From Alphaproteobacteria bacterium (GTDB lineage Bacteria; Pseudomonadota; Alphaproteobacteria; Elsterales; Elsteraceae), in assembly GCA_013298565.1 (NCBI GenBank), contig JAAFIC010000026.1:1-38485 (forward strand): 38,485 nucleotides of DNA, in the 5' to 3' direction. This document shows positions 3,432 through 38,485 of this stretch, piece by piece. The notes beneath the pieces were generated by a model. That model was not told the origin of the DNA, did not search any database, and saw nothing but the letters and a program-made list of their open reading frames with translations. The translations under genes and the position numbers were made by a program. Positions within the stretch are counted from its first letter, which is position 1. Every line of letters starts with the position of its first letter.

Positions 3432-4109
3432 ATGAACGCCCCCGCCGAACCGCTATGGTCCGATACGCTCACCTGCCGACGTGGCGGGCGGCGCGTGTTT
3501 ACCGATCTTGCCTTTCGGGTCGCGCCGGGGGAGGCGTTGATCGTGACCGGACCAAACGGGGCCGGAAAATCTAGCCTGCTGCGGCTGCTGGCGGGGTTAG
3601 GGCAACCAGCGGAAGGCGCGATTTACTGGGGTAGAGCCAATATTGCCGATGATCCCGTGAGCCACCGCGCTCGTACCGCCTACCTGGGGCATCTCGACGC
3701 TATTAAACCGCGCGCCACTGTGGCCGATCATCTGGCGCTAGCCGCAACCCTCGCCGGGACCGACGCGGGCAACGTGCCCGCTGTGGCCGAGCGTATCGGC
3801 TTGAGCGGCTTGCTGGCGCGGCCTGGGCGATTGCTTTCTGCCGGGCAACGCCGCCGCGTCGGCTTAGGGCGCTTGCTGCTGTCGGGCGCAACCCTATGGT
3901 TGCTGGACGAGCCGACGAATGCGCTGGATACTGCGGGTCAAACCCTGCTGGTAGGGCTGTTGCGCGCGCATTTGGCGGGCGGTGGAATGATCGTCGCGGC
4001 CACCCATCAGGCGCTGGACCTTGCGGGGCGCAAGTTGGTTCTCCCTGGTTTCGTTTCGCCAGAAACCATAAAAGTGAACAGCGTTATTGCCACACTCGAA
4101 AATTCTTGA
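3432..4109 (+). CDS. ccmA: CcmA-like haem exporter ATPase, orphan, with foreign-looking tail
   Basis: This is a 225-residue ABC ATPase of the cytochrome c maturation type. It has Walker A GPNGAGKSS (about 40-48), the CcmA-like stretch LGHLDAIKPRATVADHL, signature LSAGQRRRVGLGRLL (about 135) and Walker B LWLLDEPTNALD (about 154-165). CcmA works with CcmB, and in the CcmABCD complex it releases holo-CcmE for haem delivery. The ATG at 3432 gives the family-like N-terminus; an in-frame start 24 codons upstream would add an arginine-rich tail. Two oddities stand out. No ccmB or ccmC follows, and the next gene is a chemoreceptor. The last 20 or so residues after LAGRKLVLPG are atypical and lie where the DNA becomes AT-rich. 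The gene may have lost its original 3' neighbourhood. Function without a local CcmB is uncertain. Confidence 0.8.
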   Translation: MNAPAEPLWSDTLTCRRGGRRVFTDLAFRVAPGEALIVTGPNGAGKSSLLRLLAGLGQPAEGAIYWGRANIADDPVSHRARTAYLGHLDAIKPRATVADHLALAATLAGTDAGNVPAVAERIGLSGLLARPGRLLSAGQRRRVGLGRLLLSGATLWLLDEPTNALDTAGQTLLVGLLRAHLAGGGMIVAATHQALDLAGRKLVLPGFVSPETIKVNSVIATLENS

Positions 4110-15987: not shown

Positions 15988-16641
15988 TCACCCCTCAATC
16001 ACCACCGCGTCTCGATCCGTCCGGTGGCGATAGAGGTGCCAGAGGAAGTGGGCGGCGGCTCCTCGGTAGGGGGCGAAAGGCTCACCGCCGAGGCGGCGAG
16101 CTTTGCCGGTGGGGCGCTCCTCCCAACCGCGCAGGTGCCGCAAGGCTTCCATCACGGCAATATCGTCGGCGGGCCACAGGTCCGGGCGGCCTTGGGCGAA
16201 CAGGAGATAGACTTCTGCTGTCCACGCGCCGATGCCTTTGACGGCGACCAGATGGGCGATGGCCTCCTCGTCCGGCAGCGTGCCGAGGTCTTCCAATCGA
16301 ACGCTGCCGCTCTCGATAGCGTCGGCCAGTGCGCGGGCGTAGCGGATTTTTGCGCCGGAGAAGCCGCATCCGCGCAAACCCTCTTCGGAAGCCGCCAGAA
16401 TGCTGCGCGGCGTCACGTCCCCCACCAAAGCCTTCATCCGGTCGCGGATCGCGCGGGCGACGGTAACGGAGAGTTGCTGGCCGAGAATAACATCGAGCAG
16501 GGTTTCAAACCCCGGTGGCCATTGGCGCAGGGCGGGGGCACCGATGCGGGCGAACTCGCGGGCGATGTCGCTATCTTGCGCGGCCAGGGCTTCGAGGGCC
16601 TGGACCAAATCGGCATCACGGGTTAGGCGCGCTAGCAGCAT
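15988..16641 (-). CDS. alkA: DNA-3-methyladenine glycosylase II (AlkA/Mag type)
   Basis: This is a 217-residue HhH-GPD base-excision glycosylase. FETLLDVILGQQLSVTVARA is the family's helix around the base pocket. The helix-hairpin-helix is HLVAVKGIGAWTAEVYLLFA, and the catalytic aspartate is in LWPADDIAV. Enzymes of this kind remove alkylated purines such as 3-methyladenine. The short length fits the compact bacterial and yeast Mag form, which lacks the N-terminal beta domain of E. coli AlkA. It reads away from the divergent DUF4170 gene. Its stop lies 29 bases before the start of the broken PIN toxin on the same strand. Confidence 0.92.
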   Translation of the reverse strand: MLLARLTRDADLVQALEALAAQDSDIAREFARIGAPALRQWPPGFETLLDVILGQQLSVTVARAIRDRMKALVGDVTPRSILAASEEGLRGCGFSGAKIRYARALADAIESGSVRLEDLGTLPDEEAIAHLVAVKGIGAWTAEVYLLFAQGRPDLWPADDIAVMEALRHLRGWEERPTGKARRLGGEPFAPYRGAAAHFLWHLYRHRTDRDAVVIEG

Positions 16642-22659: not shown

Positions 22660-22718
22660 AAAAAAGCCTGGCCTCAAAAAGCCCGGCCAAAAAAAGCCTG
22701 CCCAAAAAAAAGCCCGGC
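22660..22718. repeat. Four degenerate tandem units of A-run plus GCCYGSCC
   Basis: Units begin at 22660, 22676, 22689 and 22704. Each is a run of five to eight A bases followed by GCCTGGCC, GCCCGGCC, GCCTGCCC or GCCCGGC. Unit length is 13-16 bases. The last unit forms one arm and the U-tract of the terminator next to it. The series looks like duplicated, partly decayed copies of a terminator arm. Confidence 0.6.
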
Positions 22719-22738
22719 AGAGCTAACTCTGCCGGGCT
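22704..22738 (-). terminator. Rho-independent terminator of the solute-binding protein gene
   Basis: On the minus strand AGCCCGGCAGAG and CTCTGCCGGGCT form a perfect 12-bp stem with a TTAG loop (22711-22738), followed by eight Ts. It lies 26 bases after the stop of the solute-binding protein gene and ahead of anmK, so it insulates the two minus-strand units. Confidence 0.92.
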
Positions 22739-22763
22739 TCATCAGAAGGATAATCCCGAAAGA

Positions 22764-33929: not shown

Positions 33930-34005
<76 letters not shown>

Positions 34006-34044: not shown

Positions 34045-34261
34045 GCTTTTGGGGTTTGTACACGTCAGAAAAGCCATGTACGGCCTGTGTACGAATCTAG
34101 GGGACAGGTCAGGAGAGGACACGAGCGACAATTTCGCAGAATTCCTGCGGACCCCACTGGACATACTAGGCCATGCATATTAACTTCAACGAATAGCCGA
34201 CTTCTGATTTACGCGCGCCCGGCAACCGGGGCCTTTGGCGAATTCCGGCACCTTTTTTCAA

Positions 34262-34290: not shown

Positions 34291-34545
34291 ATGCCAGAAA
34301 TCTCCACATCCACAACAATTTCCGCCGATTCGTTGGGTTTGGTCAGTGTCGATGACGCTGCCTCGCTGCTCAGCATCACGCCCAGAACGCTTCGCCGCTG
34401 GAGGCAACAGCGGGTCGGCCCACGTTGCGTATTTGTTGGGAGACAGGTCCGCTACCGACTCACAGAGCTTCAAGCCTGGACCCAGCGCGCCGAGGGTTAC
34501 ACGCGCGAAAGCCATTCCCGCCCCTCTTCTAAGAAGGGGGCATAA
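34291..34545 (+). CDS. AlpA/excisionase-type helix-turn-helix protein
   Basis: This 84-residue protein contains a MerR-like HTH_17 domain at about 16-68: LVSVDDAASLLSITPRTLRR, WRQQRVGPRCVFVGRQVRYR, LTELQAW. This is the form found in AlpA regulators and excisionases of integrated elements. A strong ribosome binding site, GGGGAGAGG, supports the ATG at 34291. It is the first gene after the tRNA and stands 4 bases before a RepA-like helicase gene on the same strand, so it probably controls the replication or excision functions of the element. The basic serine-rich tail (SRPSSKKGA) is unstructured. Which of the two roles applies cannot be decided from sequence alone. Confidence 0.85.
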   Translation: MPEISTSTTISADSLGLVSVDDAASLLSITPRTLRRWRQQRVGPRCVFVGRQVRYRLTELQAWTQRAEGYTRESHSRPSSKKGA

Positions 34546-34549
34546 CGAG

Positions 34550-35902
34550 ATGTCCGACCACATCTTCGATTGGGATTCGCAGCCCTCTGACAAAATCGCC
34601 GCGATGGTGGCCCATGCCGCAGCCTTTCCCGATCCTGACGTCGATACCGTCGATCCGCGCGAGCAGGAAGCCACTGCCGCTGCTCTTGGACGGCAGCAGA
34701 CGCGGAATCGGTCCAAGACCGGATTGCTTTCGCCTTTCAGCAGGGAAGAGAAACCCAAACGGCTTACAGCATGGGCTGATCCCGAGGAAGGAATCGTGTC
34801 GCAGCAGGACATCCGAGCCGCTTGCGAGGCTGGTTATCGAGGCGATAAATTGCCTGACTACGACTTCATTTTGCCAGGGGGAGTTGCCGGCGATGTCGGT
34901 GTCATCGCCGGGGGCGGGAATCTCGGAAAATCCTGGATGGCGATTCAGATGTCGATTTCCCTTGCTTGCGGCATCGATATCTTTGGCTTGTTTTCCGGCG
35001 TTCCAACCGACGCTGGCTGGACCCTAAAGCGCCGCAAAGTGGCCTATATCAGCCTCGAAGACAATGCAGATACGGCTACCCGCCGACTGCATTCGATCTT
35101 TGCATTCCTTCTCAAAAGCAAGGACAAGCCGCAGTTCTCAAATATCGACATCAAGAAAACGATCACACTGATCGAGGAAAATTTCCACATCGTCGATATG
35201 TCGGGGAAGGGAGAGAAAGCCTACGTTTCCGCCGATGGAATGACGCCAGAAGACCGAGATGAAATCGTTAATCTCATCTCAGATCGATTCGTTGGATTCG
35301 ATCTAATCATTTTCGATACGTTGCGGCGCTCTAACTCGCACGACGAAAACGATAACGTTGGTGCGAACAGGACGTTAAGTCAGTTTGACCAAATCGCAGC
35401 GAATCTTAAATGCATGATTCTGGTTCTTACGCACGTCACCAAAGAGGCCAGCTTCAACGGCGATACTCAAATCGAAGTTGTTCGCGGCAGTGGTGTATGG
35501 TCCTGCAATACTAGATACGGGTGTGTAATGGCCCCGGTCGGCCAACAGAAGGATAAGGGCGGAAAGAGGGTGCGGGTCGATGAATATCTGCGTCGCCATT
35601 TCGTCCGGCTAGCGATTCCGAAGGCAAATAAAATTGCCCCGATCAACGAAATTTGGCTTCATCGGTCTTCGAGCGGTGTGCTGTACCGCACCGACATTGA
35701 TGTCGATGCGGCGATATTGATGTCGATGAGCAACCCAGACTTGACCTTTCTCAACGAGGATTCGATCCGCACAGCCCTGGAGATCGCGGGCAAAGGTAAG
35801 GGACGACCTCAAGCATCGGCCAGCAGCGAGAAACCCTTCGATATGACACCGGGTAGGCCGAGATCGAAGAAGCCTGCTGCGGCATCCAGCAGGAGGGCAT
35901 GA
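34550..35902 (+). CDS. repA: RepA-like hexameric helicase (AAA_25 family) of plasmid type
   Basis: This is a 450-residue RecA-fold ATPase. After an N-terminal acidic extension (about 1-105), the core begins DYDFILPGGVAGDVGVIAGG, with Walker A GGGNLGKSW, then YISLEDNADTATRRLHSIFA, Walker B FDLIIFDTLRRSNSHDENDN, and LVLTHVTKEA. These are features of the RSF1010 RepA family, which unwinds plasmid DNA at the origin. The tail is basic and proline-rich (GRPRSKKPAAASSRRA). The ATG at 34550 lies 4 bases after the HTH stop. Its stop overlaps the next gene's start region. A RepA-RepC pair is the core of IncQ-type replication. The extension at the N-terminus is longer than in RSF1010 RepA. Confidence 0.85.
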   Translation: MSDHIFDWDSQPSDKIAAMVAHAAAFPDPDVDTVDPREQEATAAALGRQQTRNRSKTGLLSPFSREEKPKRLTAWADPEEGIVSQQDIRAACEAGYRGDKLPDYDFILPGGVAGDVGVIAGGGNLGKSWMAIQMSISLACGIDIFGLFSGVPTDAGWTLKRRKVAYISLEDNADTATRRLHSIFAFLLKSKDKPQFSNIDIKKTITLIEENFHIVDMSGKGEKAYVSADGMTPEDRDEIVNLISDRFVGFDLIIFDTLRRSNSHDENDNVGANRTLSQFDQIAANLKCMILVLTHVTKEASFNGDTQIEVVRGSGVWSCNTRYGCVMAPVGQQKDKGGKRVRVDEYLRRHFVRLAIPKANKIAPINEIWLHRSSSGVLYRTDIDVDAAILMSMSNPDLTFLNEDSIRTALEIAGKGKGRPQASASSEKPFDMTPGRPRSKKPAAASSRRA

Positions 35903-35904
35903 CC

Positions 35905-36816
35905 ATGCGCCCCATGCGACAGAACCGCGAGCCGCAGATTGCCAAGCTCGACCGACCTGTTGCCCTCTCACCCCTGTTCCAGATGGGACAGGGGAAGGAG
36001 GTCAGGTATCGCACGGAATTCACTTACGACGGCGATCCCGTCGAGGTAGAGATAACGAGCCGAACTAACCTTGGTGCGACGGAACAAGATGTTCTGCTTG
36101 CCATCGAGTCAGTTGCAAGCCGAAGAGGCTTCCGGTTGGAAGACGGCGGCAAGATAGCAATCGAGGCGACTGCTGCCGAAATTCTTCGAGCCCTGGATGA
36201 CCGGCATGAGGGCGGTAAAGAGTTTGCCCGAATCAGGGAGGCAATCGAGCGACTTGCATCCGTGACGGTTCGGATCGAGAAAAAACAATCATCAGGACGG
36301 TATAAGCCCGTCTCAATAGACAATTTGATATCTCTGACGGGCGATCAAGACGGAAAACTTGTGATACGCATCCATCCGATATTCAGCCACATCATCAAAG
36401 GAGGAAGCGGATATATCCAAATAGATCTTCAAGAAAGGATGCGTCTTGATTCAACAGGTCGAATCTTGCACGCCGTAGTGTGCTCAACGATCAACCGTGG
36501 ATCGACCGGCAGAATGTTGATTGGGAGCCTTTGTGAGCGAACATGGGGTGATCCCCGCCCCCTCGCACGTCGGAAGGAGGCCATGAACCGCTTCTTCGAC
36601 GAGATTGAAAAGATGGGGTGGACGGCGACCGTCGAGAGGCCTGAGGGACGGAAAGCATCGTCAGGAGACCCGGTTCTGTTCGTCCGACCTGCTGCCCCGA
36701 CCGTCCAAAGCCCTCCCCGGCCTGCTGCCCGACGATCCAAGCCGACACCGAATGAGCAGATTAACGCCGTTCCTGTTCCTCCTGACGACATAGAGAACGA
36801 ACCATGTCCATTCTGA
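35905..36816 (+). CDS. repC: RepC-like replication initiator of IncQ type
   Basis: This 303-residue protein has the layout of IncQ RepC, which binds origin iterons. It has VRYRTEFTYDGDPVEVEITS near the start, TNLGATEQDVLLAIESVA, then GKLVIRIHPIFSHIIKGGSG, YIQIDLQERMRLDSTGRILH, RGSTGRMLIGSLCERTWGDP and RKEAMNRFFDEIEKMGWTAT. The spacing and winged-helix pattern correspond to RepC of RSF1010 as I remember it; no alignment was run. The ATG at 35905 is chosen because AGGAGG ends 8 bases before it, while an ATG at 35899 overlaps the repA stop but is too close to that site. The C-terminal 40 residues are proline-rich. Iteron-like repeats follow the gene within 65 bases. Confidence 0.8.
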   Translation: MRPMRQNREPQIAKLDRPVALSPLFQMGQGKEVRYRTEFTYDGDPVEVEITSRTNLGATEQDVLLAIESVASRRGFRLEDGGKIAIEATAAEILRALDDRHEGGKEFARIREAIERLASVTVRIEKKQSSGRYKPVSIDNLISLTGDQDGKLVIRIHPIFSHIIKGGSGYIQIDLQERMRLDSTGRILHAVVCSTINRGSTGRMLIGSLCERTWGDPRPLARRKEAMNRFFDEIEKMGWTATVERPEGRKASSGDPVLFVRPAAPTVQSPPRPAARRSKPTPNEQINAVPVPPDDIENEPCPF

Positions 36817-36877
36817 TGATGTCACGAGTGAACAAAACGTGCATATATAATATAAATTATTGAAATCATTTATATAG

Positions 36878-36914
36878 TACCGGGACTTTTGCATCGTTTA
36901 CCGGGATTTTTGCA
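36878..36914 (+). repeat. Pair of iteron-like direct repeats, 21-bp period
   Basis: TACCGGGACTTTTGCA (36878-36893) recurs as TACCGGGATTTTTGCA (36899-36914), identical at 15 of 16 positions. The starts are 21 bases apart, two helical turns, the usual spacing of initiator-binding iterons. They begin 62 bases after the RepC-like gene. Only two copies are present, fewer than in RSF1010. They could be a minimal initiator site or an operator for rep control. Confidence 0.7.
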
Positions 36915-36979
36915 CAAATCGTCGAAATAGCGACGCAATACCAATGATTTAGCGGCCTATCTAATATCTAAAGATATCA

Positions 36980-37007
36980 GCCCCCCTGGCCTTTGGGCCA
37001 GGGGGGC
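36980..37007. repeat. Perfect GC-rich hairpin in the oriV-like region
   Basis: GCCCCCCTGGCC (36980-36991) pairs exactly with GGCCAGGGGGGC (36996-37007) around TTTG. Neither strand has a T-run after it, which argues against a terminator. In IncQ plasmids, hairpins next to the iterons serve as single-strand initiation sites for primase; the same role is possible here but unproven. Confidence 0.6.
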
Positions 37008-37198
37008 GCGTGGGGGATTTCGTCGAAAAGGAGAGGGTCCATCCAAGAAAACATAGCAAAGAACGGAGATCTCGCCAGGATCGACGATATATCGTATTTT
37101 ACCTAAATCAGTTCCATCGATCCCGTCGATCTTCCCCGGCGATCCAGACCAGGGGGGCAGGAGCCACCCCACTTCGACGACCCCGCCCCAAGGCCCTC

Positions 37199-37269
37199 CA
37201 GGGCCGTGCTGTGATCCCTGAAGCGGGTATCCCTGGCCTCGCATCGACGACCACGCCACGCCCCATTTA
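37199..37269 (+). repeat. Direct repeat, left copy, flanking the higBA-type pair
   Basis: The segment starts CAGGGCCGTGCTGTGATCCC and contains TGAAGC, then GGCCTCGCATCGACGACCAC and GCCACGCCCC, ending TTTAAAC. A similar segment occurs at 37939 after the antitoxin. The two share long blocks with scattered differences and one insertion of about 15 bases in the right copy. They bracket the toxin-antitoxin genes. Confidence 0.7.
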
Positions 37270-37321
37270 AACACTATCTTCCTTTCCCTTTGGTCTCGTA
37301 TCCTGTAAGCTACAATCCAAT

Positions 37322-37618
37322 ATGCCAGATATCCGCAAGACCACCGACTATAAGGATTGGTTCGCCAGCCTGCATGATGAGCGCGCAAGAGCACGGATCA
37401 ACACCCGTATCTATCGGCTTCAGCATGGTAATCCTGGTGATGCGGAGCCTGTTGGCGAAGGCGTGTCGGAACTGCGGATCGATTATGGCCCTGGGTATCG
37501 AGTCTACTACAAGGCCCAAGGGCGCAGCATCGTCATCCTCCTGTGTGGCGGCGATAAGAGCACCCAGACAGCAGATATCACGCACGCGAAGAGGTTGGCA
37601 CGGAACATCAAGGAGTAA
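37322..37618 (+). CDS. higB: HigB/RelE-type toxin
   Basis: This 98-residue toxin of the RelE/ParE superfamily (addiction module killer type) has IRKTTDYKDWFASLHDERAR at the start, RIYRLQHGNPGDAEPVGEGV, then SELRIDYGPGYRVYYKAQGR and a late VILLCGGDKSTQTADITHAK. The conserved ELRIxxGPGYRVYY and GGDKxTQxxDIxxA blocks are intact. The family typically cleaves translated mRNA. It stands first, 5 bases ahead of its antitoxin, in the plasmid-like element. It probably stabilises that element. It is not closely related to the other HigB-type toxin at 12.8-13.2 kb, which is of the Gp49-like branch. Confidence 0.93.
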   Translation: MPDIRKTTDYKDWFASLHDERARARINTRIYRLQHGNPGDAEPVGEGVSELRIDYGPGYRVYYKAQGRSIVILLCGGDKSTQTADITHAKRLARNIKE

Positions 37619-37623
37619 CGGCC

Positions 37624-37932
37624 ATGACGATTGATACCACTCCCGTCGACACCACTCCCTGGGATGTGACGGAGTACCTCGGCAGCGAGGAAGCCATAGC
37701 CCACTTCCTCGAAGCGATCCTGGAAGAGAACGATCCATCCCTGTTGGCCGCTGCCCTGGGCGACATCGCCAAGGCACGAGGGATGACCCAAATAGCGCGC
37801 GATGCAGGGCTATCCAGAGAGAGCCTCTACAAGGCCCTCAGCAAGGACGGGAATCCGGAGCTTGGGACCGTCATGCGCGTAATGAAGGTCATGGGGTTGA
37901 GGCTGTCGGCATTGCCGGTGAAGGCTGCTTGA
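37624..37932 (+). CDS. higA: HigA-type antitoxin
   Basis: This 102-residue antitoxin matches the addiction-module antidote family: WDVTEYLGSEEAIAHFLEAI, EENDPSLLAAALGDIAKARG, then the helix-turn-helix MTQIARDAGLSRESLYKALS and GNPELGTVMRVMKVMGLRLS. It should bind the preceding toxin and repress the operon. The ATG at 37624 lies 5 bases after the toxin stop. Both partners look complete. A direct repeat that also stands upstream of the toxin begins 6 bases after the antitoxin stop. Confidence 0.94.
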   Translation: MTIDTTPVDTTPWDVTEYLGSEEAIAHFLEAILEENDPSLLAAALGDIAKARGMTQIARDAGLSRESLYKALSKDGNPELGTVMRVMKVMGLRLSALPVKAA

Positions 37933-37938
37933 AGCGCG

Positions 37939-38026
37939 CAGGGACGGTGCTCAGACCCCTGAAGCCTCGTTCCGCCGCAAACACCCCCTGGCCCCGCATC
38001 GACGACTATGCCACGCCCGTTAAAAC
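37939..38026 (+). repeat. Direct repeat, right copy, flanking the higBA-type pair
   Basis: The segment starts CAGGGACGGTGCTCAGACCC with CTGAAGC, continues through GGCCCCGCATCGACGACTAT and GCCACGCCC, and ends GTTAAAAC. It corresponds to the left copy at 37199-37269 with a few substitutions and an extra block between the two conserved halves. Together the two copies frame a unit of about 830 bases that contains only the toxin and antitoxin. Confidence 0.7.
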
Positions 38027-38120
38027 GGGCATCCAGGCACTCTCGGAACTCGATAAAATAGAAGCCCGGCTACAACCACCGGGCTTCCAATGTATTCAAA
38101 ACATGCATATAATATACATC

Positions 38121-38485
38121 CTATAATCTCTGCACATGCCTCATCATCAATTCACAGAATTTCTCTGCATTTTTTAACTGCGCTCTATGGCTGTTGACCC
38201 GGATTGATTGCATCCGTCGAATTTGCGATATAAAATATCGATCCTTATTCTCATCAATCATATCAGAATAATTGATCTTTTCCAACAACAACTCAGATAA
38301 CCACCCCACCCCTCGGATCGACGATAGGTAGTATCTAATGATGCTATGAACAGTTTTGTCTTGCACTATCTTGCGATTGATAGAGCTTCTGACAATAGCC
38401 ATCCCCATGAATTCATGATGAAATGCCCCCTTCCGCATCGGCGGCAACCAGAAGTCGCCTTCATTGCTATTAATATCTTTGAGAG
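38121..38485 (-). CDS. Hypothetical protein, C-terminal part (5' end outside window)
   Basis: The frame is open to the window edge: codons upstream of the first possible start (TTG near 38447, ATG near 38438) still read LKDINSNEGDFWLPPMRKGA without a stop. The start is therefore probably outside. About 121 residues are visible. They are helical and basic, with FHHEFMGMAIVRSSINRKIV, IIRYYLSSIRGVGWLSELLL and FISQIRRMQSIRVNSHRAQL. I do not recognise the family. Its DNA is distinctly richer in A+T than the chromosomal genes of this window, in keeping with an acquired element. No signal peptide or catalytic motif can be seen in this part. Confidence 0.6.
   Translation of the reverse strand, partial: LKDINSNEGDFWLPPMRKGAFHHEFMGMAIVRSSINRKIVQDKTVHSIIRYYLSSIRGVGWLSELLLEKINYSDMIDENKDRYFISQIRRMQSIRVNSHRAQLKNAEKFCELMMRHVQRL

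Follow-up and report, generated by a model that had tools for sequence, protein, structure and literature searches.

A probable replication origin beside divergent repA-repC genes in an element integrated in a tRNA-Lys gene

In an alphaproteobacterial contig, overlapping repA and repC genes are followed by a short non-coding stretch that combines an AT-rich tract, a pair of direct repeats and a GC-rich hairpin. Is this stretch a replication origin (oriV) and, if so, does it belong to the IncQ type, as proposed in the initial annotation? The window analyzed here, that is, the whole stretch of 38,485 nucleotides, is a complete contig (C46) that ends inside an integrated element. This setting was missed by the initial annotation: the element resides in a tRNA-Lys gene, and its parts follow one another in the order tRNA-Lys, TGTAC repeats, AlpA/excisionase-like gene, repA, repC, candidate origin, toxin-antitoxin pair. 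The features are the following:

33930-34005, plus strand: tRNA-Lys(CTT), detected by ARAGORN; the 3' half (∼33960-34005) serves as the element's left attachment site
34057-34093, plus strand: three TGTAC-core repeats, probable integrase arm sites
34291-34545, plus strand: AlpA/excisionase-like HTH protein (Pfam HTH_17, E 1.4e-10; the excisionase model scores below the cut-off)
34550-35902, plus strand: RepA, RSF1010-type replicative helicase (AAA_25, E 6.8e-22; PDB 1g8y, E 2.9e-20)
35899-36816, plus strand: RepC, predicted IncQ-type iteron-binding initiator (PF06504, E 6.7e-16)
36838-36877, no strand assigned: AT-rich tract (33/40 A+T), candidate DNA unwinding element
36878-36893, plus strand: iteron 1, TACCGGGACTTTTGCA, from sequence reading and repeat searches
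36899-36914, plus strand: iteron 2, TACCGGGATTTTTGCA, starting 21 bp after the start of iteron 1
36965-36976, plus strand: 12-mer TATCTAAAGATA, identical to the center of a palindrome in related origins
36980-37007, no strand assigned: GC hairpin with a perfect 12-bp stem and a 4-nt loop, candidate strand-initiation site
37322-37932, plus strand: toxin-antitoxin pair of the HI1419/HI1420 type (TIGR02683, E 7.6e-39; TIGR02684, E 3.7e-36)

The att repeats that flank the element within the tRNA gene are both present: the 3' half of the tRNA (33960-34005) matches the other end of the element, C73:666-711, over 46 bp (91% identity), with attR on contig C73. The TGTAC repeats, which are probably arm sites judging by their position and by the Arm-DNA-bind domain of the integrase, are matched near that end as well (C73:494-534). 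A tyrosine integrase gene adjoins att on the minus strand (C73:2-472; Arm-DNA-bind_3, E 7.9e-18, and a SAM-like domain); it starts near the element end and encodes the N-terminus, and the catalytic part runs off the contig. The element is split by a contig gap between the window end (38485) and C73:1, and the unassembled part includes at least the remainder of the integrase gene; none of the nine integrase hits was seen to supply this part at the start of another contig. The toxin-antitoxin pair is a probable stabilizer of the element. No RepC is found in the family's eight other genomes, which include two from the same genus; the element is therefore sporadic.

The presence of an initiator gene next to the candidate origin, as put forward in the initial annotation, is borne out by the protein comparisons. 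RepC scores 58.7 bits against the Pfam RepC family (cut-off 22.8), and RepA matches the structure of RSF1010 RepA (PDB 1g8y), with the Walker A (GGGNLGKS) and Walker B (LIIFDT) motifs intact in the alignment. The two genes overlap by 4 bp (35899-35902), the helicase gene of the RSF1010 type directly preceding repC. The AlphaFold2 model of RepC (mean pLDDT 70.8) contains two winged-helix domains in tandem and matches domains 2-3 of RctB (Foldseek E 8.5e-10; VIA Z 14.7), iteron-bound RepE (VIA Z 12) and iteron-bound Pi (11.7); because of these structural matches of the model, RepC is very likely an iteron-binding initiator. In sequence comparisons, RepC is a deep branch of the IncQ initiator family: it shares 22-30% identity with 25 relatives whose mean identity to each other is 55-70%, a gap that is partly a product of the search, in which these relatives were picked via a conserved peptide. 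The closest relative is only ∼30% identical, and none is near enough to show conservation of the repeats; searches with peptide patterns detected no close relatives of RepC in GTDB contigs or viral contigs, and there was no RepC in phage records.

The three parts of the candidate origin are located where the initial annotation placed them, as verified by reading the sequence. The 33/40 A+T content of the tract at 36838-36877 (35/40 in the 40-mer that starts at 36840) is reached at a single further spot of the scanned 38.5-kb contig, 4099-4102, making the tract one of the two AT-richest spots of the contig. The two 16-mers share the form TACCGGGA[C/T]TTTTGCA (36878-36914), with 15 of the 16 bases identical and one differing, a start-to-start distance of 21 bp and the first copy beginning 61 bp past the repC stop. 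There is no third iteron in the 21-bp register, where the best candidate, with 7 mismatches, lies within the hairpin, and no further copy with fewer than 3 mismatches was found elsewhere in the element. The initial annotation had named a scattering of the 16-mer over the genome, without any link to rep genes, as a refuting result. This is not the case: the exact 16-mer occurs at two sites in the 3.02-Mb genome, both of them here (two more sites have 2 mismatches), and a search of 384 further genomes from this class did not find it. Single copies of the 16-mer in 17 viral contigs, none of them paired, were taken as chance matches.

For statistical support, the 505-bp non-coding stretch 36817-37321 was shuffled 1000 times with its dinucleotide composition preserved. 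None of the shuffles gave a tandem pair of 16-mers identical in at least 15 of 16 positions, and none gave a perfect stem of at least 12 bp, with the caveat that a comparable tandem pair is present in the window also inside the repA coding sequence (35692-35728) and that a longer perfect hairpin exists elsewhere in the window (22710-22739). No DnaA boxes were found near the candidate origin, and, in Rfam, the tRNA alone scored above the gathering score.

The hairpin itself, GCCCCCCTGGCC-TTTG-GGCCAGGGGGGC, with 12 perfect pairs and a loop of 4 nt, has a DNA folding energy of -18.3 kcal/mol (z -4.1). It is located 164 bp past the repC stop and could accordingly be placed to serve as a transcription terminator or an mRNA-end structure of the repA-repC operon, an explanation that concerns the hairpin only, is compatible with an origin and appears quite possible, if not favored. 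A terminator scan reports the hairpin for the minus strand, where the T-run is weak, whereas on the repC strand, no T-run follows it. Of 53 related origins, 19 have a strong hairpin no more than 350 bp from repC, without a single conserved type, a recurrence that does not decide between the two roles.

The repeats, too, allow another interpretation, namely that the 16-mers are an operator bound by RepC or some other regulator of the element, for which two sites are enough, the real origin being elsewhere, for example, in the unassembled middle of the element, which is cut by the contig gap between the window end and C73:1, or among the TCGWCGA motifs downstream. This 7-mer constitutes a second significant motif family, with 5 copies in 36817-37321 compared with 0.066 expected. 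Nevertheless, an operator with a distant origin seems distinctly improbable: there is no sigma-70-like promoter hit at the repeats, the pair lies downstream of repC, in the same place as the iterons of array-bearing relatives, and the TCGWCGA sites are irregularly spaced and occur in both orientations. Two more copies of the 7-mer follow by 38324, for an overall range of 36919-38324, and the stretch that bears the hairpin is flanked by two copies.

The candidate origin was compared with the origins of related modules. The comparison set consisted of 80 RepC relatives from named genomes, distant ones retrieved by an alignment-based scan, and several IncQ plasmids; the array statistics cover the 46 distinct repA-repC cases that have an iteron array. 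In these 46 modules, the iterons mostly lie at or adjoin the repC end, and for this reason, an origin at the locus examined here is the expected reading. The number of iterons is three in 27 of the modules, four in 16 and two in 3, the two-copy cases apparently being undercounted (L070 and L076 contain three units by eye, and L068 is cut by the search boundary), so the observation in the initial annotation that two iterons are fewer than usual is correct, relatives carrying three to four. The iteron period is 22 bp in 41 modules, 21 bp in four and 20 bp in one. The claim that the parts are arranged in an IncQ-like order fails: the iterons come first and the AT-rich maximum lies past the first of them in 45 of the 46 relatives, whereas in the window, the AT tract precedes the iterons. 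Nor do related elements contain the same repeats in the strict sense. Iteron arrays are indeed present at the repC end, but a matrix built from the iterons of the relatives (129 sites from 40 origins) gives no score to the window repeats on either strand, a miss that may be expectable at such a protein distance; with the matrix silent on both strands, the notion that these repeats are IncQ iterons on the opposite strand is unsupported as well. The window agrees with the relatives in the position and kind of the repeats and differs from them in copy number, order and sequence.

Other shared elements are discernible in these origins. A conserved 30-bp element near ATCCATCCAAGATTNTCCAAAGATNATCCA is present in 41 of 50 RepC-linked origins (L038-L117 and L024-L028), ∼60-85 bp past the start of the last iteron where this was measured, and no published description of such an element beyond the iterons was found. 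In 41 of 50 related origins, a palindrome near GATTATCTAAAGATAATC is situated past the iterons. The 12-mer TATCTAAAGATA at 36965 is identical to the center of such a palindrome, but matrix scans do not single out the site, and it is a weak lead only. Among the layouts closest to that of the window is the one in the distantly related L063 (Gammaproteobacteria NORP350), where three 21-bp iterons follow repC at a distance of 242 bp and a gene similar to alpA is located close by.

In IncQ replication as described, the RepB' primase acts at ssiA and ssiB (PMC6925257). No such primase, alone or fused to MobA, was seen in the window, and PF16793 is not detected in the 3.02-Mb assembly, in which the middle of the element is unassembled. 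The failure to find one is not fatal for the origin reading because, of the 54 related loci that are at least 9 kb long, 53 similarly have no RepB' primase within 5 kb and because a primase-free fragment from Sulfitobacter indolifex replicates. This fragment of 2579 bp comprises repA, repC and 634 bp downstream, with no primase gene (PMC9025767); its primers are located at 16217 and 1504, spanning the start of the record, and it contains four 22-bp iterons, the first one 72 bp after repC. The least probable of the alternatives, that the module is a decaying remnant in which an IncQ-like origin lost iterons and the primase after integration and no longer replicates, would fit the two iterons instead of three or four, the lack of RepB' in the assembly and the state of the neighboring C73 element, where only pieces of phage genes are left beside a fragment of an integrase. 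Against it, no stop or frameshift interrupts repA or repC, the toxin-antitoxin genes or the integrase fragment of the element itself, and primase-less modules are the rule among the relatives, one of them shown to replicate.

How, then, does this locus relate to characterized systems? IncQ plasmids (RSF1010; IncQ-1 to IncQ-3, for example, pHP18, pCHE-A and Komagataeibacter pGXY040) share with the window the overlapping repA and repC, the directly repeated iterons of 20-22 bp, the AT-rich stretch and, in several cases, a hairpin. The window differs in having two iterons rather than three or more, with an unrelated sequence, in the placement of the AT tract between repC and the iterons, as opposed to the IncQ order (repC, iterons, GC-rich, AT-rich, palindromes), in the lack of a detectable RepB' primase and in its integration in a tRNA gene. 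The conserved 15-bp element reported for IncQ origins, CTGCGCCTAGTGGAG (PMC7557826), has no match in the window with up to 3 mismatches. Because this element is absent and no RepB' primase was found, the hairpin is unproven as an IncQ single-strand initiation site. The proposal of an IncQ-type oriV thus survives in part: RepA and RepC, together with the iterons at the repC end in the 46 relatives, speak for it, and the order of the parts and the 15-mer against it. Since the number of iterons, the order and the 15-mer were all tested and do not agree, classifying the locus as an IncQ origin would be wrong; it departs from the canonical IncQ oriV, yet most likely works like one.

The RepQ plasmid pDSM14862_g of S. 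indolifex (Alphaproteobacteria), whose replicating fragment holds no primase gene, shares repA-repC and the iterons with the window, at 72 bp past the stop compared with 61 bp, but is a plasmid with a RepA that is ∼30% identical and with four 22-bp iterons of another sequence, the AT-rich maximum lying beyond them. ICERspD18B of Rheinheimera sp. D18 and 28 loci that share its origin sequence are similar to the window in encoding an integrase, AlpA, RepA and RepC, in the location of the iterons at the repC end, in the lack of a RepB' primase within 5 kb and in being chromosomal. They differ from the window in having three 22-bp iterons overlapping repC, a RepC that is ∼23% identical, a guaA target site and conjugation genes (the last two according to PMC7775301). 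The repC end and the iteron region are identical over 220 bp in 29 loci (within L079-L110), each from another genome and probably including that of Rheinheimera sp. D18, a sequence identity that points to the recent wide spread of one integrated element.

Similar in arrangement is Salmonella genomic island 1 (SGI1). This integrated island has an oriV of its own, in which, as in the window, rep is followed by an AT-rich stretch and then by 16-bp repeats; the AT-rich stretch lies beside four such repeats, ∼50 bp after rep, and the island is kept as a plasmid-like form of 4-8 copies when a helper is present (PMC7826253). SGI1 replicates only with a helper and, unlike the window, has four repeats, DnaA boxes and a RepA of the Rep_3/IncN type, that is, another initiator family. 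According to a supposition by the authors of that study, the cell is harmed if the initiator is active when the origin is still chromosomal (PMC7826253). Origins with two iterons are known elsewhere, in ColE2/ColE3 (PMC4980987).

We consider it likely that 36838-37007 is a cryptic oriV of a small element integrated in tRNA-Lys, which probably works only after excision; put more generally, this is probably the oriV of a divergent RepA/RepC integrative element that is, or recently was, functional. From the family, the fold and the position, we infer that RepC, produced from the operon immediately preceding the region, would bind the iteron pair, whose members, at a spacing of 21 bp, would be two helix turns apart on one face of the DNA, and would then melt the adjoining AT-rich tract. 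The RepA helicase would load at the melted tract and unwind the DNA, an activity established for RSF1010 RepA. Once exposed, the hairpin may assist in priming or positioning strand synthesis, and the primase might be supplied by the host or be encoded in the unsequenced middle part of the element, both suggestions being speculative. The integrase and Xis would excise the element, yielding a transient plasmid form in which the origin probably works, by analogy with SGI1, where it is active after excision. What speaks against an origin is the presence of only two iterons, the AT tract on the opposite side, the failure of both the iteron matrix and the 15-mer to match and the lack of a detected primase. 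A stronger version would be a deep-branching RepA/RepC system that needs no more than two iterons, has its unwinding element on the repC side and starts strand synthesis at a single GC hairpin with host priming, in a replicating, primase-free module of ∼2.5 kb with its origin core turned around relative to IncQ; we regard this version as unlikely.

The kind of origin is already known, but this one is unusually small and rearranged. If the two iterons and this hairpin suffice, few iteron origins with a self-encoded helicase would be smaller, and RepA/RepC initiation would be shown to tolerate origin parts in another order. Primase-less repA-repC modules with iterons were found in chromosomal contigs of dozens of genera; integrated elements that could replicate as plasmids look common, and strand priming in them is a testable question.

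Several observations bear on the history of the element. The toxin-antitoxin operon is bracketed by a 33-bp direct repeat (37231-37263 and 37986-38018, 91% identical) that occurs nowhere else in the genome, which points to insertion of the pair as a single unit. In the T-stem of the tRNA, CAAGG/CCTTG in the window compared with GTAGG/CCTAC in the displaced half represents a paired change, and the displaced half (C73:666-711) is identical, in 46 of 46 positions, to the tRNA in a genus mate; apparently, the element swapped the 3' half of the tRNA for its own version. Directly behind the element, C73 (L012:720-5304) contains an integrase fragment, a phage portal protein and a further copy of the tRNA end, and this second stretch is a tandem element, probably decayed, in the same tRNA site.
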